NCBI GenBank assembly: GCA_947179485.1
Contig: OX359250.1
Location: 13,684,539-13,748,538 of the forward strand
Length of the DNA: 64,000 nt
From: Allacma fusca
Lineage: Eukaryota; Arthropoda; Collembola; Symphypleona; Sminthuridae
Direction of reading: 5' to 3'
A program made the position numbers and the translations under genes. Of the stretch, positions 1,551 to 61,576 are shown in pieces; positions within the stretch are counted from its first letter, which is position 1, and each line of letters starts with the position of its first letter. Below the pieces are notes generated by a model. That model was not told where the DNA came from. It was given only the letters and a program-made list of their open reading frames with translations, and did no database searches.

Positions 1551-2780
1551 CAGTGCTGCGATCGGGTCAAGTAATTTCAAAACTTGACCATGAACTTGAC
1601 TTGACCCCGAAACTTCAAGTAAGTTTCAAGACACAACCAGAACTTGATAACTCGCGTTCGTGTAATTACTTGACTTGTCAAGTTCAAGTAATCAAGTAAC
1701 TTTATAAGACCCGAACTTGATCAAGTAGTTAAAGTTCCAAACTTGACTTGAACTTGACTTGACCATGACTTGAACGCGACTTGAACTTGATAATTCAAGT
1801 TAAGTATCACAAAAATTAAAACATGACCACAATAACTTGTCGAACTTGTTTCGGCAAATTATTTCCTTTAGACGGAAAACCAAAACGCATTCAGAAAACA
1901 ATTTTACTAAAATTGTTTATTTAAAACAATTCGAGGACAACTTTGAGCGCATATTGAATACAGTAAAAGATCGATATAATTGACTACAATTTATAAAGGA
2001 TTTTCCCTTATAAAAACGTCTAAAGCATTGTATAAATGAAAGTTGGGGTCAAACAAATGCATCCCTGATATCGATACATTCCTTATAAGCTGAGCCCTTA
2101 AAACGGACTTTCACTGTATATCTGACAAGTTTTATTTAATGTTCATATATGCATATACCTATTTGAGTATTACCAGTACTCTTAACTTAATATTTAATAA
2201 ACTAGTATTTACTTATTTATTAAACGCTTTTCGTAAAGGGCCATCCAAGTACATTTTATATTGTAATTTATTTACACAAGTTGAACTAATATTTCTAATT
2301 GTAAGCAACAATATGAATTATCAAGATAATTCTTTCTTTTCATGAAGAGGCCTCTGCAAAAACTAACAATAACGTCTGATAAACAAGACCTTCATAAAAC
2401 TGACTCTGATTTTGAACTTTGTCGCTTAATTTATGACAAAATACTCTGAACACGACATGAAATTGGATTGTGATTTTGAAATTGCGTCCGTCCTTTATGG
2501 CATGCGCAATCTAAAATTACTTGAACTTGACCATGAAATCTCAAGTTCATGGTCAAGTTTTTTCTTTCCATTACTTGACCCTGAACTTGACTTGAGGTTT
2601 AAGTAAATTTCCCTTACTTGTACTTGAACCTGACTTGTCTTAAAATGTCATGGTCAAGCCGAGTACGTACTTGAACTTGACCCGAAAGATTCAAGTAAAA
2701 AAATTTGCATACTTGAACTTGACCCGAACTTGAACTTGACTCGAAAACTCAAGTATTACTTGAACTTGTCCGCAGCACTG
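1551..2780. mobile_element. Non-autonomous hAT, ACTTGA array family, copy 1
   Basis: 1230 bp with ends CAGTGCTGCG / CGCAGCACTG and a perfect 8-bp target duplication ATTGTAAC (1543-1550 and 2781-2788). CAGTG-type ends with 8-bp duplications are characteristic of hAT transposons. Roughly 1560-1810 and 2515-2770 are dense arrays of ACTTGA / TCAAGT half-sites in both orientations. The ~700-bp core is AT-rich and has no transposase. It lies inside the MULE-like element. A second copy of the family is at 49798-51022. Confidence 0.88.
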
Positions 2781-2906
2781 ATTGTAACCGAAGAAACGAT
2801 AATCTGGGGAAATGTTCCAATGGTTCGATAATATACTGCGACGTGAACATTACTGTTACCCCGGTCTCGTTTCTTCGAATTGAATGCTGATGTCCTTTAT
2901 CGAAGG

Positions 2907-3509
2907 TAGAGCTTCCTTCGGGTTTCCGAAAACCGGAAGTTCCGTGTTCGGAAACGGAACGGAACAATTTCGGAACATACTTTTTGTTCCGTCATTGAAT
3001 CGGGACAAAACCGGAACATGAGAACTTGTACCGACGATATTGGGACCGGGACAGGTCACAGCATCGGTACGAAAACTGGCACATATAATTTATGTCAACG
3101 GAAAGCGGAATTGTTCTGTTCCGTTCCGTTCCGATCCCGGTACACTTTATGAAGTGTCCTTACTATTTTAAAATACAGAAAGGAAATATTTACAATCAAA
3201 TACCAAACTTGAACATAATTATTGTTGTAGAAATATTCTAGGTAGTGTAAATTGCATTTCATGTACATGTAATAAAACATTCCGGGATGCTTCGGAACGG
3301 AACGGGTTCGGAACAGAAAAACCAGCATAATCCGGAACGGAACACGAACTGTGACGGAAATAAAAAACTTGTTTGTTCCGAACGATTTCATTTAAATTAT
3401 TCCGATGTCCCGACAGTCGGAACGGAACCGGGAACAATATTATTGGTAGGTTTCGGAACGGAACGGAGTTTTCTACGGAACAAAAATGTTGAACACATTG
3501 GAAGCTCTA
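2907..3509. mobile_element. Non-autonomous hAT, GGAACGGAAC array family
   Basis: 603 bp, ends TAGAGCTTCC / GGAAGCTCTA, with a perfect 8-bp duplication ATCGAAGG (2899-2906 and 3510-3517). The terminal ~200 bp on each side are arrays of GGAAC/GTTCC half-sites (for example 2935-3060 and 3290-3480). The core has no coding capacity. It is nested in the MULE-like element. Confidence 0.87.
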
Positions 3510-3775
3510 ATCGAAGGTCACACGAGCCAACAAAGTAAACCTGGTGTTACTATCTGCTTCCATATTTCTACAGTTGTACTCCTGTTAATATGACCCATAA
3601 ATAAAGCTGACAGATCCTCACGAAGGAAATAGTAGGCTTCCAAATTTTCATTGAAATATGTATTCCTGCTTGTAAAAAAACCAATACAGTCAAACAAGTG
3701 GCAGTTTTTAAGACTACCCCATATTAGGGGCAATGGTCAAAATTTCAATTCACCTATATTTCAGCTTTTTCCGAA

Positions 3776-3968
3776 GGGCACCGCACAATCCTTACGAGAA
3801 TATGCCCCCTGTTCGATCTCGATAAGAAAATTCCTGGAGGGTGCACTGAAGAGTAGATCATTTTTGATAATTGGCCCAAAGAAATCGTAATGCAGGATTC
3901 GGAGATATCCCGGGTTAAAGTTAGTGAAAAATGAGGGGGGGCTCTTGGGGTACGAAAAATGGGCTCGT
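3776..3968. repeat. Fragment of the AAGGRCACCGCAC foldback element
   Basis: About 190 bp closely match the outer arm of the large palindrome at 53400-55573, starting at the same terminal GGGCACCGCACAATCC. Only one arm is present, so this is a truncated copy inside the MULE-like element. Short frames crossing it are not genes. Confidence 0.75.
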
Positions 3969-5580
3969 TCCATTTTGCGAAAAACAAAAAAAAATATGCA
4001 GCCGCTGTACCAACAATAAATTGTCGCCCAGCATCGTAGTAGTTAGCTCTTAACTAATGTTTACTATATTATAATTAATTAATCTTATTCTCTAAGTGTT
4101 TACTAATGAAAATATTATTGTGGTTCTGGTAAATTAAATACTTACATCGGAAATTCCTCGGACAAATGCACAAAATTACTGTAGAATAAAGAAACCCCTT
4201 ACGTAAAACAATTAAGACTACTTCATACAAACAGTTTAAGTTCAATTTAAGAAGAAAATTAATGAAAACAAGCCAAAACACTAAACTCAACTCAATTCGA
4301 AACTCCTTTGACGAAACGGAAAGATTCGCGCGAGACTAAATGCATCGATGATAGAAACATTGCAGTGTGAATCATCTTAACAATAAATTCAACATATTAT
4401 TTTCATTACGGTGCTTTTAATAAATTATTCATTTTAATCGTTTTAATACCATTATGTGTGAGAAATTAATTCTCATGTACATTATTAAGTACTCAAGGGA
4501 CCAGATAAGGACCAGTAACTTATTTGGTCAAAGGCTAGTGCACACTGTCAGCTTTTTCAATCGCGGAGTCAAGAGCATAGAGTTCCATCATGGAAATGCA
4601 TTGATAAGTAATAGTACGGCTGGTATGGCATAGCGAGAAATCGCCTAAGTTCCCAGCCACTGCCAGCCTGCAAAGTCAGGTTTTACGTCCTAGTCTACAC
4701 TCTCATGTACACCGGTTTAGTTTAGGGAAACAAGAATGCCTCTAATTGGATGAATTTGTTAGCGCTAAATTTCATAAGCGAAATCACGTGTATTTCTTCG
4801 GTGGACACATAGCTGTTCTAGTCTAGTCGGACTAGACTAGAAATGACTAGATTTGACTAGACTTTTGACATTATTTTTCGAAAATGATTAGACTAGACTG
4901 GACTAGAAAGACACGTGAGAATTTAGACTATGAGTAGACTAGACTTGAACTGCTAAAAATTCCTTGGAATAGACTTGGACTTGAATGTAAAAAAATAATT
5001 AATTCTATTCAAGTCCTCCTTTCAAAACCTTGAGTAAACCCATAACCCGAATACTAAACCCTGCGCCTCCATCACAACGTTCATGTATCTCGCTCAAATC
5101 AATCACATGCCAGGAAAACATACGTCTGTAGTAATTAATGTACAAGGATCGTTTGGGACACTTTGAGATGCCATTTTCACCATTCTTATTATTTCTAATG
5201 TTCGACCGTTTAATTATAAATAAGTATTATAAGCATTGATTGATTCATCTTATCACTAGGATAACCAATAAAACAAAATCTAGTTTTTGTGTTAAAATGA
5301 GTTCCCAAAACCAGAACGAAAATCTGCGCATACTTATTTCACTTACAATTAGAGTAAAACCACCGTCGAGAAAAATGCCGAATTAAAATGTGCCTAAAAT
5401 TGATAAACCAGCAATAATAATCCAGAACAGGTCACAAATACCTCCCAGAAACACATGACACACCTAGTGATAACAGCAAACAACGCGTTATTGCCAGTAC
5501 ATCAAACGATCCTCCTTTAATCGACTGAATTAGCCGTTCCATCAAACATTAGCGAATCTTCATCAGGAATGCTTGCTCAT

Positions 5581-5892
5581 ATGGCTTCAAAGAGCAAGCG
5601 TGCAGATGATGGAAATACTGTAAAGAAATTGAAACCTAGTCTTGTAAATGGTAAAAGTGACAATAGCAGTCCTGACGAAGTTTACAATTCAGAAAATCCC
5701 TTAGAAATGTACTAAAAAATAATTGTAAAATTCGGCTATAAAATTGCATGCAGGAGTAAAGATATTTTTACATTTGTTGGACATAAATTCGATTAAAATA
5801 ATCAAAATTGAATTGCTGCACTGTGCTTCTTGTGTAACGTGTATAGTAGCAGCGCTGCAGGAGGTTCTTCTAATCTGGTTCGACATTTTAAG
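5581..5892 (+). pseudogene. hAT transposase N-terminal remnant with BED-like zinc finger
   Basis: A 44-codon frame from ATG 5581 (MASKSKRADDGN..., polar) ends at TAA 5713-5715. Downstream an open stretch at 5815-5892 reads ALCFLCNVYSS...GGSSNLVRHFK and stops at a consensus 5' splice site AAG|GTAATT. The pattern C-x2-C ... SSNLxRH is the BED zinc finger at the N-terminus of hAT transposases, where it contacts transposon-end DNA. It sits inside a hAT with intact ends, so this is probably that element's own transposase, with the catalytic and hATC regions lost. How the two pieces join, and whether the first belongs, is inferred. Confidence 0.6.
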
Positions 5893-6154
5893 GTAATTAA
5901 TCTAAAAAGTAAAATGTATTTAATCGTATCCATATCTTTGGTTTACGTGGTTATTCTTTATTAAACAAGCTAAATTATATGTAATATAAAATGTATTTGT
6001 CCAATGTGAACTAACATGGCCTTAACCTCGGTCTTAAATTTCGGGATTTACCAAAATTTCTTCAAGGAACTACAAATCACTGGACATTTGGAACCTAAGA
6101 ATTGCTTGGAAATAATAAATTAGTGTGTAAAGACCCCCTTGTAACTACTTTTGT

Positions 6155-7597
6155 CAGGCACTCCGGAATAAGGGGGGACAGGAGGTACATTGTCCCTCCC
6201 AAAAAAAGTCAGGGAGGGACAGACTATACTGCTGTCCCCCCACTTTTAAGAATCAAATGAGCCTTTTCTTAACTTTTTGATTTCAAAAGTCCTATGAAGC
6301 TTCATTTTTTTAAAAAAATCCTCCACACACTGCTGTTAGGTGTATTTAAGAAACTCGCAACAAACTATCTCTTCTAAACAAAAATGTTTACTTAAATTAT
6401 AAATATATTTTATATCATTTATTATTTTTATCCCGGTTTATGCATGCATGTGAAGATCGGCTCATCTAGGTAACTACCAAAATTGAGTAGTGAAAGTAGT
6501 GGATAATACTGCAGCCCGAATTAAATTTTTTAAAGCAACCGTATTCATCCTTGAAAAAGATTTTGAACTTATTCAAACGATTTTATGCCAGTATTGCAAT
6601 ACTTTCAGGGTTGAAATTGTGTGATAGCGTGATTATTCAAATAGTAACTTAGGTATTCAAAGCAACGCTGCCCATCAACAAATTAGAGGATGTTTTTCTA
6701 TTTAACATTCTGTACTTTTGTTAAATTTAGAATGTTATTTCCCACTACATTTGCGGAACATATTGACCTCCCCTTGCCAGATTGATCCAGACCAAAATCT
6801 TGACCTGGATCAAAAGTTTGAACATTTTGAAACTTTTACTTTGAATTTCGTTCCAATTTCATGCCAGACCAATAAATCTTTTCCAAAATGTCGGACCAGA
6901 CATAATACCATTCCTGTATTACGAGCTTAACGGAAAATTTTCTAGAAGCAATTTATAAACTCAATAGGTTTCAGCGCGCCAATATTATTGAAAACAGTAC
7001 AAGTGAGTAATAAAACGTCACCCAAGGAGTTTATTTCAGAATATTAATAATTAACATGAAATATTGTCGTTTGGTGAAACATTTCAAAAAATTCACCGAC
7101 ACAAAATTTGGTCTGTTCCAACGGATGGAAAAGGCCATGCACTTCTAAACCAGCAAATCTACTGGAAAATGTTCCTTGGATGAAAATTGTGGAACAGATC
7201 TAGAGAAATGGTTCTACGCTTGGACACTTGGACCATGCCATACCAAAAATGAAAGAACAGATTGAACCATTCCCGGAAATAGATCACCAATTTGTTCAAT
7301 GATTCTTTGATCCCTCTTTTTGAAATCAGTAAAATTTTGATAGTATTAAGTATGTGTAAGAAAGTGTTTCTAGTACATGAGATTAGTTGGTGTCTTCTAT
7401 GAAAACTTGTTCTTTAAAAAAAATTGAAAAAACATTAAAATTTCTATATTTTGCATGCTTATATAAGCTAACAATAATATGTAACCCTATACATATGTAC
7501 ATACATACGTTTGTATGTGGCCAGTAGCAAAGTAACGAAAACTAATTTTAATATGTTGTCCCCCCCCCCACTTTTTTTGGACGTTCCGGAGTGCCTG
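6155..7597. mobile_element. Non-autonomous hAT nested in the 4808 element
   Basis: 1443 bp, ends CAGGCACTCCGGAA / TTCCGGAGTGCCTG, with a perfect duplication ACTTTTGT (6147-6154 and 7598-7605). Just inside the ends are GGGGGGACA / GTCCCTCCC runs (6170-6245 and 7558-7580), with a short right array. The interior is AT-rich and has no recognisable protein. Confidence 0.87.
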
Positions 7598-8339
7598 ACT
7601 TTTGTGTATTATGCATTTGGCATACATTTCCAATAGTGTTTCACTCAGTTATACCGATCTAGAAACATAAGTACGTGAATTCTAAGCAGCCCCTCTAATA
7701 TCACATATATTGTGGACTAGACTTGAGACTAGACTAGACTTGAATAGTGAGTGATCCTTGCTTGGCGCCAGACTCGAAAACACATAATTCTCGAATTCTC
7801 TCAAAAGCAAAACATTTAATTACAAAATTTAGGAGTCTGAAGCGCATTAAAATTTTAAAATAACATTTTACTCGAATCCTGATATTAACCTGTTTCCCTG
7901 GAGGACAAAAGCCGGAAGTTTTTACCACCCAAGTTGACGCAATCACAACTCAAAGTACACTTACGGGGAAATACATTCAGTGACATAAGGGTTTTGGAGA
8001 GTACTTCTTCGCATCAACTTAGCTGGTCCCTGGTTAAGACAGACGGTTGAGTCCGTAATAATAGATTTGGTAAACCAAATGCAGGAGTCTGACCAGGGGA
8101 TGCCTTAACGTGAGTAGCATCAAATTAAATTATTTCATCCGTGTATAGCAATCCTTCAGGAAAAAAAAATCTAAACCCACCTCCGAATTACAAAATTAAT
8201 CTAAACCTTACTGACTATTTTTAATTTTAATTACATGCGAGGGCCAACATTTTTACTCGAATTACTCCACCTGACGAAAGAAAACTTCTTGACCATCTAC
8301 CCCAACTCAATTACAATTTAAAGAATACCATCACCAGCC

Positions 8340-9050
8340 ATGGGAGGAAACAAAGCTCCAAACCAATCTAGCCAGTCATCAGGCTCATCGTCCAACAGAG
8401 ACGAAAGGGCTGAAAAGCGTGAATTTAAAGAATTCATGGATGACACAAAGAAGAGGCTAAAATTCCTGGAGGAAGAAAATAAATCTCTGAAGGAGGAAGT
8501 GGAGAGACTGAAAAAGCAATTAATCAACTCCAACAACGACAAAACGTACAATCAGAGTAATGAACGTAGAAACAATCTCATCATTTCAGGTCTGGATAAG
8601 ATCACGGAACAATCTAACGCTAACCAAGCGAAGGCAATTGTCAACAATTTCATTAAGGATAAGTTAAATATTACAGAAAACTTATCATTCTCGTGTGAAA
8701 TAATCGTTCCTAAGGTTAAGGCTAATGAACCAACAAAAAGGCCCTTAATTAAATGCAAGTTTAAAGACATTGCAGAATCAAACAAAGTCCGAAGTAAAAG
8801 AAAGGATCTACGGGAACGTAATGTGTGGATTAATGACGACCTTAACCCACATCAATTGAAGATCGTTAGCAAACTAATCGAAAAAAAGAGGGAAATAATC
8901 AACAAAAAACCCACGTACAAAGCCCACATCTATGCAAACAGATTCCTGATCATCCGGACCACTGGAGGAAAGGAGTCTTTCTATGAATCAGACGGAACTG
9001 ACACTGTCCAGATAAATACAATTCCTGGACTCCGACCTCAAAAAACCTGA
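8340..9050 (+). CDS. LINE ORF1 protein (coiled coil plus RRM-like region)
   Basis: 236 residues, intact. Residues ~18-65 are charged heptads (EFMDDTKKRLKFLEEENK, then further leucine and lysine heptads), a coiled coil expected to trimerise. After ~75 comes RRNNLIISGL, the opening strand of the RRM-like domain in ORF1 proteins of this type. It continues to a basic C-terminal region (KTNxxxxAHIYANRFLI-like). ORF1 proteins coat the element RNA and act as nucleic-acid chaperones in the LINE ribonucleoprotein. The start is the first ATG after the long leader. It ends in TGA at 9048-9050, and the frame continues open into ORF2 without a shift. Confidence 0.85.
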   Translation: MGGNKAPNQSSQSSGSSSNRDERAEKREFKEFMDDTKKRLKFLEEENKSLKEEVERLKKQLINSNNDKTYNQSNERRNNLIISGLDKITEQSNANQAKAIVNNFIKDKLNITENLSFSCEIIVPKVKANEPTKRPLIKCKFKDIAESNKVRSKRKDLRERNVWINDDLNPHQLKIVSKLIEKKREIINKKPTYKAHIYANRFLIIRTTGGKESFYESDGTDTVQINTIPGLRPQKT

Positions 9051-12000
9051 GAACTCGCCTCGCCCTTAACACAAGACTTCCGCATTTGCTTCTGGAACTG
9101 CGACGGAATCACAACACTGAGAAACTTAATCCCTAAGGAACTTGAAGAAATCGCATCAGAAATAATATGTATAAATGAAACGTGGTTAGAATGTGAAAAC
9201 CCCAAGTTGCAAAACATGATTAGGAATAATTATACGAATATAACTTCAAAGGCAAAAAGGTCTAACATCAAAGGGAGGGCAAGTGGAGGTCAGCTTATTT
9301 TAATCCAAAACACCATACTTGAAACATCGGAAATAATTCACAACGAGTTTGGCTTTATTGTATTAAATGTCCAGTTCAAAGAGAAAAGGATCCCAAAGTT
9401 AATTGTTGTTTTTGTGTACATTCCTCCAGGAAATGACTCCGAATACTTAGTGAACAGATTTCACGACATCTTAATTGATTTAAATAACAGATTATCCTCG
9501 TGTAATTTTATTATAGCAGGAGATTTCAATGCTAGAGTGGGACATCTTAATAATGCAGCAGAAATTAGCAATCCAAAACTTACAGACGTCCGAATATCCA
9601 TGGACTCTAAGGTAACAAAGAGGGGAAATCGTATCACCGAAATCTGCGAGGAAGCTGAATTAATTCTCTTGAATGGGCGGACCAAATCGGACACACCAGC
9701 TAAATACACTTTCGTTGCACCCCAGGGAAAGAGCGTCATAGATCTAGTTTGGGTAAATCACAAATGCAGCGAAAATGCAGTAGACTTTAAAGTAGAAAAC
9801 CTCGCACTTACTTCGGATTCCGTTGGAACCTTGCACCTAAACTGGACTAACAAAGAAAAATCGACGGTAGTGATGAGAGAGCAACTGAAGTGGGACCAGG
9901 ATGAAGCAGAAAACTACTATAATTACTCCAGTCAGATCAATAAGCTTGTAGGAAATAGCATCAACGAGCAATACGATCGCATCACAAATTGTATCTACAA
10001 AGCAGCTGAAAGTACCTTGAATATAAAAAGACCCACCTCAGACTAGTTAAGCAGAAGAAAAAGGAGGACTGGGAAAACACAAAAAGAAAGTTAAGAGAAA
10101 ATAAAAACACCTCACAATTCTGGACAACCATTAACAAGTTCCGAAAAGGCAAACCACCACCTAAACTCCTTAATGAAGAAGTTTGGGTTAAGTTCTACAA
10201 AGAAATCATGCCCCCAAAACTATTTGGCCCATGGGGAAACTTTAACAATACTGATGATTCCTTGGATGAAGCTATCACGTGGGAGGAGTTAAATACGGCT
10301 CTCGGCACTCTCAAAAGTAACAAAGCTCCCGGAACCGACCAAATCACCAATGAATTCCTGAGGAACTGCCACCCAAACACAACAAACGAAATACTCAAAT
10401 TATTCAATGATATAATGATTGCAGAAAGAACACCCACAAAATGGTCCGAAATTGAGCTAACAACATTATACAAAAAAGGAGACGACTCTCTTCCTATTAA
10501 CTACAGAGGAATTGCTCTAATCAACACAATGTCGAAATTATTTACAACAGTAATTCAAAACCGACTATACAAATGGTGTGAAGAAAAAACATCCTGCCAG
10601 AATCACAGGCAGGTTTCAGGAAGAAAAGGGGTTGTCAAGACCAGATTTTTTGTCTCAATGCACTTATCCAGTCCCGACTCTCACGAAACGCCAAGCTACA
10701 CGTCTTATTTGTGGACTTCAAACGAGCATTTGACTCTATTCGGCAGGAAATTTTGTGGGAAAAAATGAACAAGCTAGGTATTAGTGCCAAAATTATAAAC
10801 ATCCTCAGGAGTCTGTACGACAGCGCCAACCTAATCGTCAGATGTGAAGAAGGGCTTACAAAACCAATTCCTGTGACCATGGGGGTACTCCAAGGGGAAA
10901 TTTTAAGCCCACTACTCTTTTCTATTTATATCAGCGATCTTGATAAATATATGGAAGAAAACGGAGCCAGTCCGGTAAACATGGGAGGAAACAACAAAAT
11001 TAACCAACTTCTCTTTGCGGACGATACATGTATACCGGCAGACACCAAAAATGGACTTAATATAATGGAAGAAAATAGATATATTAAGCAAATACTGCCA
11101 AGAAATGAGTCTTGAAATAAACTTGTTGAAAACTAACGTGGTTGTCTTCTCCCCCAGGGGAATTATTCCGAAAAAGCTCAAATGGTTCCTTGAGGGACAG
11201 GAAATACAAAAGGTTAAAGAATACACATACCTGGGGGTCATTTTTCAATCGACTGGAACATTTAAGAAGCACTTCCATCATATAAAATCAAAAGCAAACG
11301 TAGCCTCAAATGCTCTAATATCAACATTGAATGAAGCTCCTATGGACTCATGGGATAGTATGGCAAAACTTCTTAATGCCACCATCTTGCCGATATACCA
11401 GTACGCATCACCAATATGGAGCCTGAACTTACTGGAGGAGGTGGAGATCATACAGCAATACTTCCTTAAGCGACTCCTATGGCTACCCCAATCTACACCA
11501 AGATACTGGATTAGAGCTGAGACGGGAAAAACAAACGCTACCGTACAAATTGTAAAACTGACTGTGTTGCTACTAGTAAAAATATTAAGTATGGACGAAA
11601 GTAGATACGTAAGACAGTGTTACGATAGATTGTTTGAATTGTCAAAACAGAAATTAGTAAATATGAAACACAATTGGGTCCATCAAACAAAAGCGCTGTT
11701 CTTAAACTTTAGACTTATTTCAATCTGGAATAGACAGTCCGCAGATATATTCTTAGAAAACCTAGATGATATTTTGAAAACAGTTCAGCTCCAATGCGAA
11801 GAAAAAGACATCCAAAGAATATTGAAGTCATCATACTCAAGTGATTTTAAATTTTACAAAACAGACATATGCTTCGAACTACCTAAGGGCTAATATCCCT
11901 CTAAGCGTATAAAGGCTAGTTGCCCAACTAAGAGTGAACCACCATACTATATATTATAAGAAATCTAAAATTAATTTTGACCATGAGAACTGTAAATTTT

Positions 12001-12206
12001 GTTCTCTAGATGAAGAAAATAACGCATACCATTTTTTTGTGAAGTGTACTTATCTAATTCCCCTTAGGGAAAAATTCCTGGCATATTATATAGCTAATAT
12101 AAGGATAGAGAATTTGTATGATCTGTTCAAAGTTCAGGATACAGAACATCTGTACAGCTTAGTAAATTTCATAAAAGAATGTTTACCATTACGTGCCACT
12201 AATTAG
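9051..12206 (+). pseudogene. LINE ORF2: endonuclease and reverse transcriptase, frameshifted
   Basis: Directly after the ORF1 stop and in the same frame the sequence encodes ICFWNCDGI, the start of an AP-like endonuclease. It continues with INETW, the asparagine motif AGDFNARVGH (near 9520) and TYTFVAPQG/VIDLVWV. After a frameshift near 10037 come the RT motifs: SNKAPGTDQITNEFL (10315-10360), YRGIALINTMSKLF, then (shift near 10610-10700) VDFKRAFDS, LQGEILSPLLF and LLFADD (11010-11030). Another shift near 11090 precedes EYTYLGV. A fourth shift near 11895 leads to a terminal C-x2-C...H-x4-C region (11995-12050). No in-frame ATG exists until inside the endonuclease. At least four frame breaks make it non-functional. 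Confidence 0.9.
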
Positions 12207-12437
12207 GAAAGTTTTTACGTGTTATGGGCGAGACCCGAATGACATGAATAAATTGAATTGAATTGAATTGAATTGACTTGAATAGTGAGTCACGTAAAAC
12301 TTTGGACTATGAATAGACTTGACTTGAACCGCTAAAAGTGATCTTGATTAGAATAGGACATGAATAGAGTTTTCCTTGTCTTATTAAGACTAGACTAGAC
12401 TGGACTTGGGGAGCTCGTGAACAGCTATGGGTGGACA

Positions 12438-16708: not shown

Positions 16709-16790
16709 AGAATGGACTTAGCACCCACATATCCAGCACCCACACTAGCAATATTATAACTTGCAATTTTTCTCACGTCATGTCTTTTAA

Positions 16791-41005: not shown

Positions 41006-41026
41006 TTGAATTGAAGGTAGGGATTC

Positions 41027-42940: not shown

Positions 42941-42959
42941 CCGAACAGAAACCCTAATA

Positions 42960-43195
42960 GGAGCTAATTCGTGAAGTGAACAAGACTTTAGATTCGGAAC
43001 TTAAATGTGCGGGGAAGTCTAAATCGGAGCTGTTTAGTAAATCGGAGGTGATTAGTAAATCGGAGGTGATTAGTGAATCGGAGCTGATTAATGAGTCGGA
43101 GCTGATTGATGAATCGGAGCTGATTAATGAGTCGGATCTGATTAATGAGTCGGAGCTGATTAATGAGTCGGAGCTGATTAGCTAATCGTGACCTC
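42960..43195. repeat. GAATCGGAGCTGATTA array, right block
   Basis: About ten units of GAGTCGGAGCTGATTAAT type, the same motif as 40620-41005, in the same plus-strand orientation. Confidence 0.8.
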
Positions 43196-45207: not shown

Positions 45208-45392
45208 TATAGCTCCTTATCGAGTTCGAGTATACCGGCGAGTATCGAGTACGAGTACGAGTTCGAGTCGAGTACGGTCAAATTTTTGTGAATACTCGAT
45301 ACTTGAAATGGGTTTCGAGTACGGGTAACGATTTTTCACATACTTACGAGTACGAGTATTAAACGAGTACGAGTCCAATAAAAATACTCATA

Positions 45393-48293: not shown

Positions 48294-49131
48294 TAGGGTA
48301 TGTCGATTTGAAAATGCCCGGCATTTTGGGCAACTCGCCCGCCCAAAATGCCAGGGCATTTTGGGCATTTTCATTTCAGGGCGAGGGCGGCATAATAGGG
48401 CATATTGGGCAAGGGCATGTTGGGCATTTTCATTGAGGGCAAATTGGGCATTTTGGGCAGAATCGTGCAATATAATAGAACAATCTATACAATTTGACAA
48501 TGAATTTGAAAATTTCTTTGTAATTTTGGAGAAAAAGCGTTCAAAATTATCTTGAAAATTTTATTCTGTATGTCATTATTTTGACAAAGTTAATTCAACC
48601 GGTGATGAAATACGTTTGGATATCACAGGTCATATTGAACATTACAATTTGTGAAACACCTGTACAGTACACGATACGGCTATAAATTAAAATATTCTAG
48701 GAACTATTTTTCCAAACTGCAGACGATGTTCAATGAACGATTTATTTCATATTATTGTTTACGCAGAAATTTATTTTCGTAGAATAAATAAATGATATCA
48801 CCTCATGTCAATGAAATTAAATTGATTTGACTGTTTTTGCCATTAAAATATACACGAAGAAGCGAATTACCAGACATTCACATTTGTAACTTACCCTTGG
48901 CTGGGCTTTCATGCATTTGGAGGGATATTCTGAATACAAGTATGCTAGTAACCCAATTTTGGTGCCATGAAAATGCCCAAAATGCCCAACTTGCCCTGCC
49001 CAAAATGCCCAAAATCAGGGCATTTTCAAAAGCTGCCCACATGCCCAGTTTTTGGTCATGTGGGCAGGTATTTTGGGCATTTTCAGCTGGGCGGGCAAAT
49101 ACTGCAGGGCATTTTCAATCGACATACCCTA
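48294..49131. mobile_element. Non-autonomous hAT, GGGCAT array family, copy 2
   Basis: 838 bp, ends TAGGGTATGTCGATTTGAAA / TTTTCAATCGACATACCCTA, with a perfect duplication GTTGTATA (48286-48293 and 49132-49139). GGGCATTTTGGGCA arrays lie at 48310-48465 and 48965-49115. Frames crossing the arrays (proline/cysteine-rich) are artefacts of the repeat. Confidence 0.93.
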
Positions 49132-49797
49132 GTTGTATATACCACCGACTTGCTTGGCTATATAGTGAAATAATATAGTACATACCGGCTTGGCTTGCTA
49201 TATAGTGAAATAAGCCGGGAAGGTTTGAATTCGTGAAATAAGCCGGGAAGGTTTGAATTGTACTACAAACGCGCGAAGGTTTAAATCAACAGAAGTGCTC
49301 AATAATAATAAAGGATGGCTGAACATATTAACACAAACTCTTCGACAGGCGTAGTTGAATTGATTGAAAATTTACAGAGACACTTTAACAACTGCATGTT
49401 CAATTTAAAATTTTTGGGGAATTATTTGTGAGAAATTAAATGAATCTAAAAAAAATCACTGTTCAATTGTGGTCTTGTTATTATTAAATACTCGAGTATG
49501 AAGACTCGAGTCACGGCACGAGTACGAGTACGGGATTTCGGTATTTACAGTTCCGTACTCGCGAGTATTAAACAAGTTCGGGTTCTGAACTGGAACTCGG
49601 TCGCTTATTTCAAGTATTTTCCTGAGTACTCGTATATGTGGCGAGTACGAGTACCTTGGATTGGAGTCCATACTCGATGCTTCGATTTCGAGTACGAGTT
49701 CGAGTACGGTTCCGCAAGGTAATCACTCAATAAGGAGCTATACGTGGAACTCAGGACTTCACAAGGAAAAGCATGCGTGGAATGACTAGGACTAGAT

Positions 49798-51022
49798 CAG
49801 AGCTGCGTTCAAGTCAAGTTATTTTAGACAACTTGACTTGAACTTGACTTGAACTTGAAAAAATTGTCTAAGCGAGGTATCCACACTTGTACTTGATGAA
49901 TCAAGTTTCTCAAGCAACTTGACTATTCAAGTACTCGATTTTCAAGTTCATTTTATTGAACTTGAACTTGATCGTAACTTGACGTTCAAGTTGGGCACAT
50001 AACTTGACTTGAACGTGAACTTGAACTTGTACTTGAACTTGATTATTCAAGTAATTTTTTCGTGAATGAATAAACAATACTAAAAATTTCGTCCACAACT
50101 ATTATAGCATAGCTAATAATGGCTAGGTCGTGATTAGGATAAACTAAACGGCACGCAGTTGATATTCTTTACTTTAAAATTGCTAAAAAATTTAAAATAC
50201 TCGATCAAATAACTGTAAACATTGTAGTCCAATCTAATTTACTAATTTGCACTATTAAGAGTTTAGAAATCACATTACTGGCCTGCTCACATTAGTGTTG
50301 CACTCATCTGGTGAGTGTAACCAGCAGTTATATTCATAAATATTTGTCGTCGTTAATTTTATTTAACCAATGTTGATTTATAAGGTTGTTCGTCTGCGCC
50401 ATCATGTTTAATATCAGCAAAAACTATTTTTACATGAAATTATGAATTACTCTTAAACCTCCTCTTAGCTTCAGAACAGGTGAAGTGAACAATCACTTCA
50501 TTTTTATAATGGAACAAGAACCCCGAGTATCAAGAACATCTTCATAAAACAATAAGACGGAAATTTTAATTATTCAAAATTCAAGGTTTGGAAACAGGAC
50601 ACAAGAATTATTCTCGATCACTGGCCATCGTGGCTACTTTAATGTCGTTGGAATGAAAACAAATACAAAGATGTCATTATTATGATGATTGACGCCCAAT
50701 TTTATTTTTAGTGGGATGCAATGATGCCACTAATTAGGCATTACTTACATTGCTTTTCAGTGACAAAAACTCAAGTTATACTCAAGTTTTATTCAAGTAC
50801 TTCCATTCATTGTACTTGAACTTGACTTGATTTTACAATCAAGTAATAAATTATTAACTTGAACTTGATCGAACTTGAACTTGAAAATTCAAGTTAAAAT
50901 TATAGTTTCACTTGAACTTGATGTTCAAGTTTCAAGTTACAAAATTGTCTGCACTTGACTTGACTTGAACTTGATACGCACTTGAACTATTCAAGTTATA
51001 CTTGAACTTGAACGCAGCTCTG
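49798..51022. mobile_element. Non-autonomous hAT, ACTTGA array family, copy 2
   Basis: 1225 bp, ends CAGAGCTGCGTTCAAGT / ACTTGAACGCAGCTCTG, with a perfect duplication GACTAGAT (49790-49797 and 51023-51030). TCAAGT/ACTTGA arrays lie at 49805-50060 and 50765-51015. Size, end sequence and motif match the element at 1551-2780. Confidence 0.93.
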
Positions 51023-52627: not shown

Positions 52628-55600
52628 TAGGCATTGGCATATCGGTCATTTTTTAAATATCGTTAATATCGTTATCGTTCATCCTAAAAATGACGATAAC
52701 GATATCGAAGGACGATATAACGATATTTATTTCAATTTGAAACGCAAAGGTTAATAATGGAAAATGCAAAAATAATAGACCAAAAACTGCCAAAGTATTG
52801 ATGATTAGTTAAGTACTCACTTCATTACTACTGTTTACGACAAAAATAGCCACAAAAATTCATTGTTCGAAACATTATCAAAGAACTTTGCTTTTTACTG
52901 ATCCCGTTCCAAAGAGACTATAGTTGGTATTAACTGAATGAAAACTGGTGCTGATAATGAGGATTTACGTAAGGCAAACCAAGTATATTTTATCCCCACC
53001 AACAACATAATTGGTATTCATTTTTCTGAAACTGGTGAGCAGGGTTGCACAAATGAAAATGCCCTAGGTTTTATGCCTGCCCTCCTGAAAATGCCCAAAA
53101 CGCCGAAAATGTCGAAAATGCCCGGAATTTTGGGCATTTTGGGCATTTTTACAGAAACTTATACACTATGACCATTAGCGAATATAAGTGAGGTATTCAT
53201 AGCATAATCAAACCCATCAAGTTTTAGAAAATGTTATAGTTGATTTAAAAAAATATTTCGTCTAATTCGTTACTAATGGCCAGTGGTTATTTCAATAATC
53301 TTAAAAAAATTTAAGCCCCAACGGAGTTGCAAACATTCAACGCTGTACGTTATAAAAAACTTTGGGATTTGGAAAGAACAATTTGCACAGTAGTTTGCAA
53401 AGGACACCGCACAATCCTTACGAGAATATGCCCCCTGTTCGATCTCGATAAGAAAATTACTGGAGGGTGCACCTTGAAGAGTAGATCATTTTTGATAATT
53501 GGCCTAAAGAAATCGTAATGCAGGATTCGGAGATATCCCGGGTTAAAGTTACCGAAAAATGAGGGGGGGGGCTCAAGGGGTACCAAAAATTTCAAACCGT
53601 GAAAATTAGCAATATAACTTCAAAAATGACAAGAATAAAAATTAAATAACGTGTACAAAAAATTTCAGCGAGATATGACCTCAACTTTCCAAGATATTGA
53701 CCTCAAGAGGTCAAAGAACGTCAATACCGGTTTCATACTCTAAACTCGGATAAAACTGTTCCAGATTAGAACTAGGGCTTTCATTAGACATATATTCAAC
53801 TTGTGCCGAGGTTGGTTCCAGTTTGTGACACGATGACCCAGCTGTGACCTCCGAGGTCAATACCTTACCCATACCGGATTTGTTGCCTTAAAATCCTTCG
53901 AATTGCCCGCAAATAGACTAGAACTTTTAGTTTGAGCCCAGATAAGTTGCCTGTCTAGTTTGGTTCCATTTAGTGACACGATGACCCAGCTGTGACCTCC
54001 GAGGTCAATACCTTACCCATACCGGATTTGGTGCCTTAAAATCATTCGAATTGCCCGCAAATAGACTAGAACTTTTAGTTTAAGCCCAGATAAGTTGCCT
54101 GTCAAGTTTGGTTCCATTTAGTGACACGATGACCTAGCTGTGACCTCCGAAGTCAATACCTTATCCATACCGGATTTAGTGCCTAAAAATCATTCGAATT
54201 GCCCGAAAATAGACTAGATTTTTTAGTTTAAGTCCGGAGCTTTAAATAACAGTGTTATGCGTTTTGGGATGTTTGGAATAAACACCTAACACAGCCATTA
54301 GGGTTTCCAATAATAATAACTGCGGAGATAAATATGTATATATACACACATTGTTCGTTCCCTTTATATTCGTGGTAATTTTTTAGTTGTACTGATGGGG
54401 TACCGATCTTATTGTATTCAATAAAACCTCAATAGCTATTAACGTGAAATTAGCAGAAATAGAATTATAATTCAGATTCGTAATGACCGTTGTTAGCCAC
54501 CAGTGAGGACTATTGGATCTAATTTCCTTACTGTTTGTATTACATTCTACTACTTTATTCTAAAACACCATGAATTTCTCTTTAAACATTGCATTTTTGG
54601 GTAGAGGCAGTGGTATCTGGCTGAGTTAACACACATTTAGAGAGTAGAGTAGAGTTAGAGTAGCGCCAATAACTTTAACACATAATTGAATAAAATAATT
54701 GCTAGCAACTCAGCTAATCGTAATAGCTGTAGAGCTCGTTTATTCTATCCAAAACCGCTGGAAGAGTATAGTGTGATAGTAGAGGCACCCGTGGAAAATA
54801 TATAAATAAATATAAGTATAATAGAATAGAGCTTGCTGAAATGCCCGTCACTGCTGTTGTGAGGAAATAAATGCATTTCACAAATTTTCAGTTACCAAAA
54901 GTTCTAGAATATTTACGGGCAATTATAATGATTTTTAGACACCAAATCCGGTATGGATGTGATATTGACCTCCGACGCCACAGCTGGGTCATCGTGTCAC
55001 TAAATGGAACCAAACTTGACAGGCAACTTATCTGGGCTCAAACTAAAAGTTCTAGTCTATTTGCGGGCAATTCGAATGATTTTAAGGCACCAAATCCGGT
55101 ATGGGTAAAGTATTGACCTCGGAGGTCATAGCTGGGTCATCGTGTCACAAACTGGAACCAAACTCGGCACACGTTGAATATATGTCTAATGAAAGCCCTA
55201 GTTCTAATCTGGGACAGTTTCATCAGCGTTTAGAGTATGAAACCGGTATTGACGTTCTTTGACCTCTTGAGGTCAATATCTTGGAAAGTTGAGGTAATAT
55301 CTCGCTGAAATTTTTTGTACACGTTATTTAATTTTTATTCTTGTCATTTTTGAAGTTATATTACTAATTTTCCAGGTTTGAAATTTTTGGTACCCCTTGA
55401 GCCCCCCCCTCATTTTTCGGTAACTTTAACCCGGGATATCTCCGAATCCTGCATTACGATTTCTTTAGGCCAATTATCAAAAATGATCTACTCTTCAAGG
55501 TGCACCCTCCAGTAATTTTCTTATCGAGATCGAACAGGGGGCATATTCTCGTAAGGATTGTGCGGTGTCCTTCCGTATTTTGATAATGGCTTGTAAAGTA

Positions 55601-56537
55601 TAGACAATTTTACACTTTCATTAGATACATAAGATGCGAGCGTTATAATATATGTGAAAACTTGGAGCTTCCGTAGCAAATTTTGTGTCGACTTTGAAAA
55701 TTGCATTTAGCCCTAGTAAACCAGTGTAATAATTCCAGGAGTCCAAAATGTAACAATATATTGTATAAAAATATAATATAATAAATATATTTATGTAGAT
55801 GATGACGAGTTTTGAAGCTCACAAACAAAGATATTTTAAATCTTTTAACAACTGTTTTATCTTTTTGTGTCGCATCTTTACCCGAATAAGTTTGTTCTTG
55901 AAGTATAAATAATTACAGACACGGTGTACAAGCGAATTTTTACAACAAAATAAGTAAAATAGAATTATTATTATTTTTCCATAAATATGTCTATATCAAC
56001 TTTCTCCAGGTTTCAACCGTTTGTTTCTATAATTTTATCATGTAATCCAGTTGAATATTAAAATTATTTGCAATATACTTTTTTGTGACATATTTTGCAA
56101 AATTAGCAGGCAGCTAAAACCATATATTTAAAAAATTAGAGCGAATATGCCTAAAATGCCTGCTCTAGGCTGAATATGACCAAAATGCCACCAAGTTTGC
56201 TTTGATTCCAGCAGAAACAAACTTTGAATTAATTTAAAAAAAAACTGGTTCTGACAATGAGCAATCCCGTAAGCTACAGCTAGTATAGTAATTTACATGG
56301 TATTATTATGAGCTGACTGAATGTTTTGAATTAGTGAACAGACATTACAATTTTGGGGGTGAATTAGTATTTGGGTAGTATAGTGTACTGTTTTTGGAAA
56401 CTGGACCACGTATTTACGATATGGAAACTGACCGATAGATCGTTCTAAGTTTACGATAATTATCGTTCAATATCGTTTCCAAAAATGTACGATATGGACG
56501 ATAATATCGTATGGCTATATCGGTATGCCAACGCCTA
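52628..56537. mobile_element. hAT, CGATAACGATAT array family, carrying a large palindrome
   Basis: 3910 bp, ends TAGGCATTGGCATATCGG / CCGATATAGCCATACGA-side CGGTATGCCAACGCCTA, with a perfect duplication CTTGTACC (52620-52627 and 56538-56545). Arrays of CGATAT/CGTTAT palindromes lie at 52650-52735 and 56410-56520. Between them are fragments of the GGGCAT family (53060-53150 and 56145-56195) and the 2.2-kb palindrome. Confidence 0.85.
53400..55573. mobile_element. Foldback element: 2.2-kb palindrome with 148-bp repeats
   Basis: Starts GGACACCGCACAATCC and ends with its complement. Left arm about 53400-54240 pairs with right arm about 54880-55573 around a ~600-bp AT-rich centre. Each arm contains 148-bp units (GTGACACGATGACC recurs at 53825, 53973 and 54121; at least two inverted units on the right). 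A single-arm fragment is at 3776-3968. No target duplication was visible. Confidence 0.85.
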
Positions 56538-56599: not shown

Positions 56600-57078
56600 T
56601 AGTGTTTCTGTTCGGTATCGGGAATTCCCGAGGTTCCGGTACGGTTTCGGGTCAACGTTTTAAAGAACCGTTACATTTCGGTTCGGTTTCGGGTCATCGG
56701 TTTATGAACCGTCAAATTTCGGTCCGGTTTCGGGTACAAAAATCAAAACCGAAAGTTTTCGGGAATGGTTTGTTAAAGCTGCCGTTTTGGATGAAAACGC
56801 GAAACTTGCATTTGGCCAGCAGTTGTCAACTATCATTTGAAAAGGCGATATAATTTTAGCTTCCATAAAAATGAATCATATTTTTTTTTCTGTCTATTCG
56901 GAAAGGAACCGGAACCGGTTCGGGAACCGCTTTTATTTTCCGGATCGGTTCCGGGAAGCCAAAAATGTCCCGGACTCGAAAATATCGGTTCCGGTTTTGG
57001 GAACAGAATTGGGATTTTTTTCGGTTCGGGAAAACAAGTCGGGTCGAGTCCATGTTTTGGTACCGTTCAGAAACACTA
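56600..57078. mobile_element. Non-autonomous hAT, GGTTCGGTTTCGGG array family
   Basis: 479 bp, ends TAGTGTTTCTGTTCGGTA / TACCGTTCAGAAACACTA, with a perfect duplication AATTACAT (56592-56599 and 57079-57086). GGTTCGG/CCGAAACC arrays nearly meet in the middle (56625-56780 and 56890-57060). Confidence 0.93.
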
Positions 57079-57086: not shown

Positions 57087-57828
57087 GCATTGCGGATGAA
57101 GTAATTTTTTATGGGTAATAGAGTGGTCAATCATAATTTAAAATAAATGTATTCAAAATATTAAGCAAACATCTGAAAAGTAGCTGGTTTTTTTGAATGT
57201 TTTGATATTTTAAGTTTAGTTATAGTCGGCTTAACTCTAAATTATACATATCCATGAAGATTTAAAAATATATTATTTTCAGTCGTCGATCGTACTTTTG
57301 AGGCCTACGTCCATTAATTGTTCAGACCTTTAAAATATGATTGGGCATTCCAGCCGGTGTTATTATATTTAGATATTCAATTGGATGATAGCTGGAATCA
57401 TCCCGGGTTGCACACGCACAGTCAAAGCGCTTTTGTAAACTGTTCCGACACTCGGAATTAATTAAACGGCAATCTATACTCTACGAGCAGCATAGCCACC
57501 GCCTGCGTCGGTGGAAGCATGCTATGTAATGTAATGGGAGAGGACGCGGAGCGGCAATTCTATAGCTAAACCCACAGCGTGCTGTGTTGCGTGCCGTGTG
57601 CTTGTACATTGCATTACTTAAAGCAAAAGCGCTTTATGGCATTGTGTACTCGCAAGCCTAAAAAGCGCGTTGAGGAGGGAGCGAAGATTTAAAAATGTCC
57701 CCTCTTCTGTCATCATCTTCAAATTAAAGTATTTAGATGTGAGTTTCAGCTTTCCCCAATCCGCAACAGGCTTTTCCACTAACATTTTTAAGATCCATGA
57801 ACACAAAACACCGCAGCCATTAGGAATA
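57087..57828. other. No gene recognised between two hAT insertions
   Basis: Includes a GC-richer block (57470-57620). A minus-strand open stretch near 57700-57833 (EKPVADWGKLKLTSKYFNLK) could be a coding fossil but matches nothing I know. Confidence 0.35.
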
Positions 57829-57836
57829 GACATGTA

Positions 57837-58636
57837 AACTACGATATCGTAGTACGGTAATACCGTAATTACCGTAAAAAATTTAGGTACGGTTTAGGTA
57901 CGATAATTCTCGGCTTTTTGAAGCGATATCGTAACTCCATACGATATCGTCAGTCTAGCGGAAGGCTCATAAAACTGTGGTGTTACACACTCGAATTTTC
58001 ATTAAAAAGTGTTAAACTCAAAAATGAAAGGAATTCGTTCGACAATAAAGATTGTGTGTAGTGTCAATATGGAAAAAAATTAATCGAACTGATTATTAAG
58101 AATCTAAACCAAGTCGTGCGTCTAGTAGTTCAAGTGTTTGGATACATTTTTTGAGTCGGTCTGATGGCATGATGGCACTTCACCTGTTATGAGAAAGAGA
58201 TGGGAAGTCACTTCCTAAATTAATATAAGTACGACCAAATTTGGTAAAGATTTAGTTTAGGAAAAATTACTAGAAGATAGATCGAAGAATTCGGTATCGT
58301 TTTCTACATTTTATGATTTTCATATTTTTCATACGAATGTTAAAAAGGAAATTTGATTTTGTTTCGAACTAGCTTAGTTTTTAAGGAATTTCTGCACAAT
58401 AAATACTCTCACATTAATTGACATCAAAGACGCTAAACTGATTGTTGAATAAATGATGTTGGATTTTTTACTTCATATCTTTACTAACATACCATAAAAA
58501 TCAACTTATATTCGTGTTTTTTTACCAAAATCTGATAAATTTACGATACCGTACCTTAAAAATATTACCGGAGTTTTTCCACTTTACGGTAACGGTAATT
58601 ACGGTATTTTAAACAAGAACGGTATGAACATGTCTA
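57837..58636. mobile_element. Non-autonomous hAT, TACGGTAATTACCGTA array family
   Basis: 800 bp, ends TAGACATGTAAAC / GAACATGTCTA, with a perfect duplication ATTAGGAA (57829-57836 and 58637-58644). Palindromic TACGGTAATACCGTAATTAC arrays lie at 57845-57965 and 58545-58625. Confidence 0.92.
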
Positions 58637-59968: not shown

Positions 59969-60366
59969 CAGGGTTGGCAAGTGGCAAGAAATGGCCTGGT
60001 CAATATTGGTTAAAATCCGGTTCTAACCGGCTTGGACCTTTTGTATGCGTTGGTATAAAATGGTCTTAATTAATATTATCCAAATAAATCCACTATCCAA
60101 TAAAAACCGGTTTTAACCAAAATGTGCCACCGGCTTGGTTAAAATTAGGCATGCATGAACACAGGGTTGTCAAATGATCAGACATGGCCTGGTCGTTATT
60201 GGTTAAAATCGGTTCTAACCGGCCTGCACCTGTTGAATAGGTTGGTACAAAACGGCCAAAATTAATATTATCCAAATAAATCCACTATCCAATAAAAACC
60301 AGTTGTTGCCATTTCTTGCCACTGGCTTGGCCTTTACTAATAAAATCCAGTTTTTTGCCAACCCTG
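59969..60366. mobile_element. hAT MITE in satellite, unit 1 (AACCGG array family)
   Basis: 398 bp, ends CAGGGTTGGCAA / TTGCCAACCCTG, with a perfect duplication ACCATACC (59961-59968 and 60367-60374) that is part of the satellite monomer. GGTTAAAATCCGGTTCTAACC palindromic units fill both halves. It is internally duplicated: 60005-60110 and 60185-60300 are alike. Confidence 0.93.
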
Positions 60367-60573
60367 ACCATACCTCTGAATAATATTCGTTATGCAAAAA
60401 CTAAGGATACTAGACTTCATATTAGTGTTCATACAAATGCAATGGCTCATTTAGAAGACATTAAATCTCTACATATTTGTCCAAGATGAAAATATTTTAA
60501 TAATTGTAACTATTTTTACATTAAAATTTCAATGATAAGAATAATTGAATTTAAGCCGGTCCTGTACCATACC

Positions 60574-60971
60574 CAGGGTTGGCAAGTGGCAAGAAATGGC
60601 CTGGTCAATATTGGTTAAAATCCGGTTCTAACCGGCTTGGACCTTTTGTATGCGTTGGTATAAAATGGTCTTAATTAATATTATCCAAATAAATCCACTA
60701 TCCAATAAAAACCGGTTTTAACCAAAATGTGCCACCGGCTTGGTTAAAATTAGGCATGCATGAACACAGGGTTGTCAAATGATCAGACATGGCCTGGTCG
60801 TTATTGGTTAAAATCGGTTCTAACCGGCCTGCACCTGTTGAATAGGTTGGTACAAAACGGCCAAAATTAATATTATCCAAATAAATCCACTATCCAATAA
60901 AAACCAGTTGTTGCCATTTCTTGCCACTGGCTTGGCCTTTACTAATAAAATCCAGTTTTTTGCCAACCCTG
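60574..60971. mobile_element. hAT MITE in satellite, unit 2
   Basis: Copy of 59969-60366 at exactly +605, with the same flanking ACCATACC. Same site and orientation imply co-amplification with the satellite, not a new insertion. Confidence 0.93.
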
Positions 60972-61178
60972 ACCATACCTCTGAATAATATTCGTTATGC
61001 AAAAACTAAGGATACTAGACTTCATATTAGTGTTCATACAAATGCAATGGCTCATTTAGAAGACATTAAATCTCTACATATTTGTCCAAGATGAAAATAT
61101 TTTAATAATTGTAACTATTTTTACATTAAAATTTCAATGATAAGAATAATTGAATTTAAGCCGGTCCTGTACCATACC

Positions 61179-61576
61179 CAGGGTTGGCAAGTGGCAAGAA
61201 ATGGCCTGGTCAATATTGGTTAAAATCCGGTTCTAACCGGCTTGGACCTTTTGTATGCGTTGGTATAAAATGGTCTTAATTAATATTATCCAAATAAATC
61301 CACTATCCAATAAAAACCGGTTTTAACCAAAATGTGCCACCGGCTTGGTTAAAATTAGGCATGCATGAACACAGGGTTGTCAAATGATCAGACATGGCCT
61401 GGTCGTTATTGGTTAAAATCGGTTCTAACCGGCCTGCACCTGTTGAATAGGTTGGTACAAAACGGCCAAAATTAATATTATCCAAATAAATCCACTATCC
61501 AATAAAAACCAGTTGTTGCCATTTCTTGCCACTGGCTTGGCCTTTACTAATAAAATCCAGTTTTTTGCCAACCCTG
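61179..61576. mobile_element. hAT MITE in satellite, unit 3
   Basis: Third copy at +1210. The next monomer to the right (from 61577) lacks a MITE. Confidence 0.93.

Follow-up and report, generated by a model that had tools for sequence, protein, structure and literature searches.

Subterminal word arrays of hAT elements in Allacma fusca: a layout recurring in many families with family-specific words

The ends of hAT transposable elements were analysed in a 64,000-nucleotide window from Allacma fusca (contig OX359250.1, positions 13,684,539 to 13,748,538 of the forward strand), part of a 393-Mb eukaryotic assembly, and at loci retrieved elsewhere in this genome (labels L009 to L044). Inside both termini, most of these elements carry a dense array of one short word that differs by family, and the two ends differ in word orientation by a rule that recurs across families. 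Judged from sequence, the arrays are probably docking sites for the BED finger of each element's own transposase, with a layout that would be conserved and a word that would be replaceable.

Elements in the window and elsewhere in the genome

Window elements were sought by pairing 8-bp target-site duplications (TSDs) with adjoining inverted ends. The form YA..G, which we take to be the hAT form of the short terminal inverted repeat (TIR), was demanded in the locus searches and not in the window search. The first-pass annotation of this DNA had proposed at least 15 hAT insertions with exact ends and 8-bp duplications. Our search recovered 13 of those 15 places, and units 46043 and 43227 were located separately, by their inverted ends. 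Exact 8-bp TSDs were found for 12 of the 15 (1551, 2907, 4808, 26287, 41285, 45208, 48294, 49798, 52628, 56600, 57827 and 59969), whereas 43347 and 46043 have one mismatch each and no TSD was found at 43227. The units, named by start position, are as follows.

1551..2780, unstranded: hAT unit; TIR CAGTGCTGCG, TSD ATTGTAAC, word ACTTGA at both ends, arrays reaching about 298 and 262 bp from the tips
2907..3509, unstranded: hAT unit; TIR TAGAGCTTCC, TSD ATCGAAGG, word CGGAAC; a longer relative lies at L009 7551-8531
4808..12429, + strand: composite hAT unit; TIR CATAGCTGTTC, TSD GGTGGACA, word GACTA/CTAGTC; decayed BED finger near 5740-5900
26287..27747, unstranded: hAT unit; perfect 16-bp TIR CAGTGCTCGGACTGGG, TSD CTGCCTTC, word TACCCG/GGGTAC
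41285..42563, unstranded: hAT unit inside a 99-bp tandem array; TIR TAGGGATGCCA, TSD GTACCGAT, word ATATCG
43227..44691, unstranded: unit with inverted ends TAGGGAWTGTCGATT, TSD not found, word GGGCAT; interrupted by unit 43347
43347..43937, unstranded: hAT unit; TIR CAGTGGTCGTCA, TSD GCATATTC/GCATGTTC, word GGGAAC
45208..49742, unstranded: hAT unit; TIR TATAGCTCCTTAT, TSD CGTGGAAC, word CGAGTA; contains nested units 46043 and 48294
46043..46915, unstranded: unit with inverted ends CAAGGATGG, TSD matching in 7 of 8 letters, word ATTCCG (5 in ends)
48294..49131, unstranded: hAT unit; TIR TAGGGTATGTCGATT, TSD GTTGTATA, word AAATGCCC
49798..51022, unstranded: hAT unit; perfect 16-bp TIR CAGAGCTGCGTTCAAG, TSD GACTAGAT, 44 copies of ACTTGA in the ends
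52628..56537, unstranded: hAT unit; TIR TAGGCATTGGCATA, TSD CTTGTACC, word ACGATA
56600..57078, unstranded: hAT unit; TIR TAGTGTTTCTG, TSD AATTACAT, word CGGTTC
57827..58636, unstranded: hAT unit; TIR TAGACATGT, TSD ATTAGGAA; weak array (P=0.076)
59969..61576, unstranded: tandem copies of one unit; ends CAGGGTTGGCAA, flank ACCATACC; array not significant (P=0.146)

The TSD of 59969 is ambiguous, being repeated within a three-copy tandem array. A further TSD-bounded unit of similar build, at 6155-7597 (CAGGCACTCCGGAA, TSD ACTTTTGT), has no significant array. Within unit 52628 there is a short GGGCAT-type stretch (53037-53155). The CGATA/ATATCG words at 41285-42563 and 52628-56537 resemble sites of BEAF-32 and DREF, BED-finger host proteins that bind CGATA and TATCGATA.

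Across the genome, at least 150 matches to PF05699, the hAT dimerisation domain, were counted (150 scored of 860 candidates). The 28 places retrieved were taken from the top of the match list (20) or chosen for long frames (8); therefore, the locus sample is not random. TSD-bounded ends surrounded the gene in 17 of them (10/20 and 7/8), exactly in 15 and with one mismatch in L030 and L034. These are the 17 transposase-bearing elements used below, thus selected by their PF05699 matches; in the remaining 11 places no duplication-bounded ends were found, and they were not used as elements. The sister elements L013, L028, L031 and L033, together with L009 7551-8531, entered the array test and were excluded from the orientation, correlation and flip analyses. 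Left out were L037 and L043 (arrays near BED exons that are parts of small nested elements), L039 and L040 (no usable pair) and L035 (array overlapping the gene). L041 shows no strand bias, and L012 contributed its 3′ array only, to the correlation of word, helix and TIR.

Dense arrays of one word lie inside both termini

For each unit, the most frequent 6-mer of the 260-bp stretches inside the two ends was compared with 300 dinucleotide shuffles, which sets a floor of P=0.003. In a cross-end test, the word was picked in one end and counted in the opposite end, with a threshold of P<=0.010. Both were applied to 14 window units, including 6155, which was not among the earlier claims, and 61179, the last copy of the 59969 array. 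The array reached the floor in 11 of these (1551, 2907, 4808, 26287, 41285, 43347, 45208, 48294, 49798, 52628 and 56600) and was not significant by shuffling in 57827 (P=0.076), 61179 (P=0.146) and 6155 (P=0.203). The cross-end threshold was passed in at least one direction by 11 of the 14, the exceptions being 4808, 6155 and 61179. Two units were assessed by count only: 46043 has ATTCCG 5 times in its ends and 0 times inside, and 43227 has 11 copies of GGGCAT in its ends and 1 inside.

Arrays were present in all 17 TSD-bounded transposase-bearing elements elsewhere (16 at P=0.003 and L034 at P=0.010), and 16 of the 17 passed the cross-end test. In interior stretches, the best 6-mer averaged 3.6 to 5.7 copies per element, with one L013 stretch reaching 12. 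The density of each word in its own ends, compared with sequence outside the listed ends, was 68.9 vs 0.68 per kb for ACTTGA, 49.8 vs 0.18 for GGGTAC, 36.5 vs 0.48 for CGAGTA, 33.2 vs 0.42 for CGGAAC, 32.1 vs 0.46 for GGGAAC, 23.3 vs 0.36 for GGGCAT, 17.4 vs 0.14 for CGATAT and 16.6 vs 0.30 for CTAGAC, an enrichment of about 55 to 280 times. The words at the loci included CCTATA (L010), CTCTAC (L011, L013), GAAGG(A/C) (L014, L015, L026), CCCTCA (L018, L028), CGTTAC (L024), CGGATA (L025, L031, L032, L033), CAACAA (L029), CACTAC (L030) and GTACAA (L036). The earlier proposals of a dense one-word array inside both termini and of a word that differs by family are thus borne out, the former in 11 of 14 window units at the floor and in 17 of 17 elements elsewhere, the latter by the distinct words across window units and genome loci.

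Such arrays were also sought away from hAT ends. With a cut-off of at least 7 copies of one 6-mer per 250 bp, the window holds 26 merged array-like stretches, 9 of them outside the listed units. Four of these 9 consist of AT-rich words and one is an 18-bp tandem repeat; the other four (25501, 30401, 30926 and 52076) may be ends of further elements that were not delimited.

Several array-like regions were seen beyond the listed units. At 25614-25769 and 30995-31165, about 5.3 kb apart and with unit 26287 between them, there are mirrored CTAAACGYATA arrays in which CTAAACG is read outside-inward in both; these may have bounded an older element of a different type, whose layout rule would be opposite to that of the hATs. 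The region 30480-30735 is rich in GGGAAC and resembles the ends of unit 43347, with no TSD found, and at 52160-52410 CAATTTCAACTTCAA words are dense in both orientations, possibly marking a further small element.

The arrays are bounded and oriented

Elements selected for clear words were used in the density and spacing profile (21 of 28), in the gene-direction analysis (12 families) and in the near-TIR strand count (12 plus 8). Some 5-mers were set by hand in these three counts; in the orientation, flip and shuffle-control analyses the words were chosen automatically. Pooled density per 100 bp in successive 50-bp bins from the tip was 9.0, 5.7, 5.1, 3.8 and 3.4, followed by 0.7 and then 0.1-0.4. 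The arrays therefore fade near 250 bp, with single ends spanning 54 to 359 bp and holding 4 to 24 copies. This common fade and the ordered orientation described below speak for a bounded layout. The first-pass annotation had put the arrays down to runaway expansion of transposase-binding sites, a conjecture that finds no direct support here.

Neighbouring sites were direct in 338 of 492 pairs and inverted in 154, with direct spacings peaking at 5-6 and 11-12 bp. When the majority orientation of the word was read from each tip inward, the two ends were opposite in 23 of 28 elements, the same in 1 and tied in 4 (5-mers; sign test, 3e-6). With 6-mers the result was 20 opposite, 4 same and 4 ties (P=0.0015), and after sister elements were merged by hand, 19 opposite, 1 same and 3 ties (binomial P=4e-5). 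Dinucleotide-shuffled ends gave 11.2 opposite on average and at most 16 in 100 rounds, and inner segments of 17 long elements gave 3 opposite, 6 same and 8 ties. The first-pass description of the arrays as palindromic does not agree with the prevalence of direct neighbours or with the opposite majority strands at the two ends; palindromic half-site arrays were rejected as the main description, given the minority of inverted neighbours and the ordered flip in many families.

In the 12 families of known gene direction, with the forward word set by the 5′ end, copies on the coding strand outnumbered those on the other strand by 101:30 at the 5′ end and by 119:18 at the 3′ end, and all 12 agreed. 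The rule is absent near the 5′ TIR, where the counts were 15:18 at 10-40 bp and then 24:3 at 40-80 bp. Read tip inward, the sites of L011 run <<>>>>>>>>>>>> at the 5′ end and <<<><<<<< at the 3′ end, those of L024 <<>>>>>>>>>> and <<<<><<<><<<, those of L015 <<<>>>>>>< and <<<<><<<<<<<, those of L029 <<<>>>>>>>>> and sixteen times <, and those of window unit 4808 <<>>>>>>>> and <<<. The same flip, with more exceptions, was seen in L014, L018, L026, L036, L014 7341-8148 and window units 1551, 2907, 26287 and 49798, and it lies on the 3′ side of the gene in L025 and L030. By eye, a one-ended flip beside the TIR is present in 14 plus 2 (3′ side), that is, in 16 of 28 elements. First sites within 60 bp of the tip had the same orientation at the two ends in 19 elements and opposite in 9, compared with 3 same and 23 opposite for deeper sites (Fisher P=2.7e-5).

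An orientation rule of this kind could arise from strand composition or transcription, that is, from a purine-rich coding strand, and not from a signal that separates the ends. The coding-strand word does have at least three purines in five positions in 11 of the 12 gene-oriented families, and the array strands are 0.558 purine. The spacers, however, average 0.519 purine compared with 0.517 in the interiors, with higher values persisting in L010, L011 and L018, composition-keeping shuffles never exceeded 16 opposite against the 23 observed, and the rule fails beside the 5′ TIR. This explanation is therefore unlikely, and by the shuffle and spacer controls composition is insufficient by itself as the cause of the rule.

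The arrays could also be a tolerated, unbound by-product of slippage or post-excision repair, which would multiply short words so that each family fixed its own local one. Short tandem duplication would yield the direct spacings of 5-6 and 11-12 bp, and the left end of L014 does contain tandem copies. What makes such an origin quite improbable is that the same word recurs independently in both ends, as found in the cross-end test, that end orientations differ by rule and that the words follow the finger helix, as described in the next section.

Units 1551 and 49798, which share a word, were compared by pairwise alignment for array turnover within a word class; matching ends gave 0.79 and 0.84 and one crossed pair 0.84, with 0.69-0.74 for shuffled sequence across all the pairs, and nothing firm follows.

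The word follows the finger helix more closely than the TIR

The transposase-bearing elements are hATs by their sequence. L029 has a single 642-aa frame with zf-BED (E=2e-6) and Dimer_Tnp_hAT (E=2e-12) matches, and aligned with Hermes chains it gave an overall E=4e-11, with a core block at i-E=0.008, a dimer block at i-E=0.0003 and an RWN block that was not significant. The zf-BED match was clear in L029 and in the L027 peptide; other fingers were found by pattern, by a pattern-built profile or by eye. When the window units were searched by tblastn with locus frames of at least 100 aa, no transposase was matched. Unit 4808 carries a decayed finger (9.6 bits), and its end shows 95% identity to the end of L042, which carries the finger AAGGSSNLVRHFKV.

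The eight residues preceding the first His of the helix were aligned by hand and paired with the word spectrum at 20 loci. Helix similarity was associated with word similarity (Mantel r=0.52, P=5e-5, n=20), in families that are not independent samples. At the 15 loci with a TIR, r was 0.67 for helix and word and 0.37 (P=0.0003) for TIR and word. Word and TIR are therefore not independent, but the TIR predicts the word less well than the helix does. When the dimer domain of 13 elements was used as a measure of relatedness, helix-word r was 0.68, and 0.47 given the dimer domain (P=1e-4).

Eight locus pairs have TIRs equal at 10 or more of 12 positions. Three share their word, all with a helix identity of at least 0.75, and five have unrelated words, four of these with a helix identity of 0.25 or less. 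The fifth, L029/L036, has an identical 12-bp TIR and a helix identity of 0.75, with Asp in one and Lys in the other adjoining the His. Word and TIR thus proved correlated overall, yet 5 of 8 near-identical TIR pairs have unrelated words. A common word, CTAGTC, and similar helices occur in L042 and L044, whose ends differ (CATAGCTGTTC vs CAGTGCTGCCC; placed by eye without TSD).

Genome-wide, counting a word at most 30 bp further on, TAGTGCTGTAAT was followed by TTGTAC in 531 match lines and by TTGTTG in 67, and CAGAGATGCGC by GCCTTC in 1007 and by CGTTAC in 386; such lines do not equal elements, as one end can yield several. The reversed patterns, the sole controls, gave 0, 1, 1 and 0 lines for the four combinations.

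The first-pass annotation had given each family its own finger specificity. Word similarity does follow the BED-type finger helix; in the window, however, the link to a finger concerns only family 4808, which is tied to one by the sequence of L042. The finger link of the other window words is by analogy, because no transposase was found for them, and by extension those window families for which no finger is known may work in the same way as the others. An impression by eye of an NNARNG word form opposite an invariant Asn is not claimed; this Asn is missing in L010.

Capture of host sites is a further explanation, in which the words would be sites of promoter, insulator or silencing proteins. 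The CGATA words of units 41285 and 52628 would suit BEAF-32 or DREF, and publications on BEAF, CGATA and BED fingers exist. The words vary by family, however, and are present at both ends, including the end far from the gene start, and a single host factor would not follow the transposase's own helix. We regard this origin as very improbable.

Putative mechanism and known systems

In the docking mechanism that we favour, the hAT transposase would read a word of 5-6 bp with an N-terminal BED-type zinc finger and would dock on the 4 to 24 copies that each end carries, most of them no farther than 250 bp from the tip. The layout would be independent of the word: one end, usually on the gene's 5′ side, would have 1-3 sites in one direction by the TIR and the rest reversed, and the other end would have all sites in the orientation of the first end's tip sites. 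As the ends would thus differ in handedness despite mirror-image TIRs, a multimeric transposase could distinguish left from right. The TIR would be read by the catalytic part and be slower to change, whereas finger and word would change together, so that a family could keep its TIR yet stop sharing substrates with its relatives.

Subterminal arrays are already a known trait of hATs. According to the accessible parts of one study of Hermes, a hAT of Musca domestica, its ends of 449 and 464 bp contain 17 and 14 AAG(T/C) sites, and its BED domain binds the subterminal repeats (STRs) (PMC10368747). At the left end STR1 points one way and STR2-7 the other, at the right end STR1-5 are uniform, and unequal ends are needed for activity (PMC10368747); we read 'sense' in that text as counted from each tip. 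As far as this description goes, Hermes resembles the present elements in its short repeats inside both TIRs, its N-terminal BED finger and an inverted STR1/STR2 pair confined to the left end. It is one family with AAG(T/C), whereas here the words are many, an end can hold up to 24 copies, and several families have the layout in common.

In maize Ac/Ds, the passages available describe multiple, cooperatively bound AAACGG repeats, with about 200 bp needed per end, which are thought to confer specificity (PMC3260210). These repeats, within about 200 bp at each end, are like the arrays found here, unlike them in having one word, and their orientation lies outside the comparison. Tol2 requires 200 and 150 bp of its ends, and mutation of its subterminal repeats lowers excision (cited in PMC10368747). 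The earlier statement that known hATs have only a few sites therefore does not stand against the passages seen on Hermes, Ac and Tol2 (PMC10368747, PMC3260210), although only three copies of AAACGG were shown to be required in Ac (PMC3260210). Among hAT-derived CGG-binding proteins, as reported in the text available, most have their own DNA preference, and protein-binding microarray (PBM) motifs of all four hAT-encoded ones match their own subterminal regions (PMC8097297). That study, in the parts seen, worked across species by PBM, with no array layout and no TIR comparison, unlike the present analysis. Galileo, of the P superfamily, is described as having THAP sites in its long TIRs (PMC3688188), which is similar in placing multiple sites for a zinc-coordinating transposase domain near the ends and differs in superfamily and finger. 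In the portions of the open-licence literature consulted, neither a cross-family orientation rule nor unrelated words behind one TIR was found, the Hermes description excepted.

The simplest reading, by analogy, is that the published hAT mechanism operates in many families, in which word and finger would have been replaced jointly and the layout kept. Several observations weigh against the docking mechanism. Word similarity correlates with the TIR as well (r=0.37), and with the dimer domain at r=0.62 (0.35 given the helix, n=13); shared ancestry thus explains part of the word pattern. The helices of L027 and L044 differ in 1 of 8 residues and their words are unrelated, and L030/L034 and L011/L012 (helix identity 0.75) share little in their words. 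By eye, 12 of 28 elements deviate from a clean flip layout, and the tip sites taken by themselves do not reach significance (P=0.087). The spacers of L010, L011 and L018 (3 of 12 families) stay purine-rich. The zf-BED profile gave no match for the L014 and L010 fingers and was below the cut-off for L018 (E=0.22), in a check that did not extend to L015 and L026. In the Hermes study, binding to the right-end repeats was not observed, activity was not strongly lowered by mutations of the inner left-end sites, and left/left donors were not rescued when asymmetry was restored in the first 50 bp (PMC10368747).

A more far-reaching version, possible but in our judgement short of probable, is a two-layer address. 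The cross-family layout would mark left and right and the replaceable word would name the family, with families arising by joint replacement of finger and word while TIR and catalysis were kept. One genome would then house many hAT systems that are deaf to one another behind almost identical TIRs, and would be a natural catalogue for reading off DNA recognition by BED fingers. The observations bear on how a transposase with one small finger finds and distinguishes two ends among look-alike elements; for Hermes, an assembly with one left and one right end was not resolvable (PMC10368747). Families of one genome with the same TIR and different words are natural experiments on BED-finger specificity, end handedness and the loss of cross-mobilisation between relatives, and could supply orthogonal vector pairs for laboratory gene transfer.

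Tandem repeats in the window

Satellite-like tandem arrays were observed at 16783-19349 (156-bp units), at 40789-41284 and 42564-43180 (units of 18 and 99 bp) and at 61573-62544 (units of about 199 bp).

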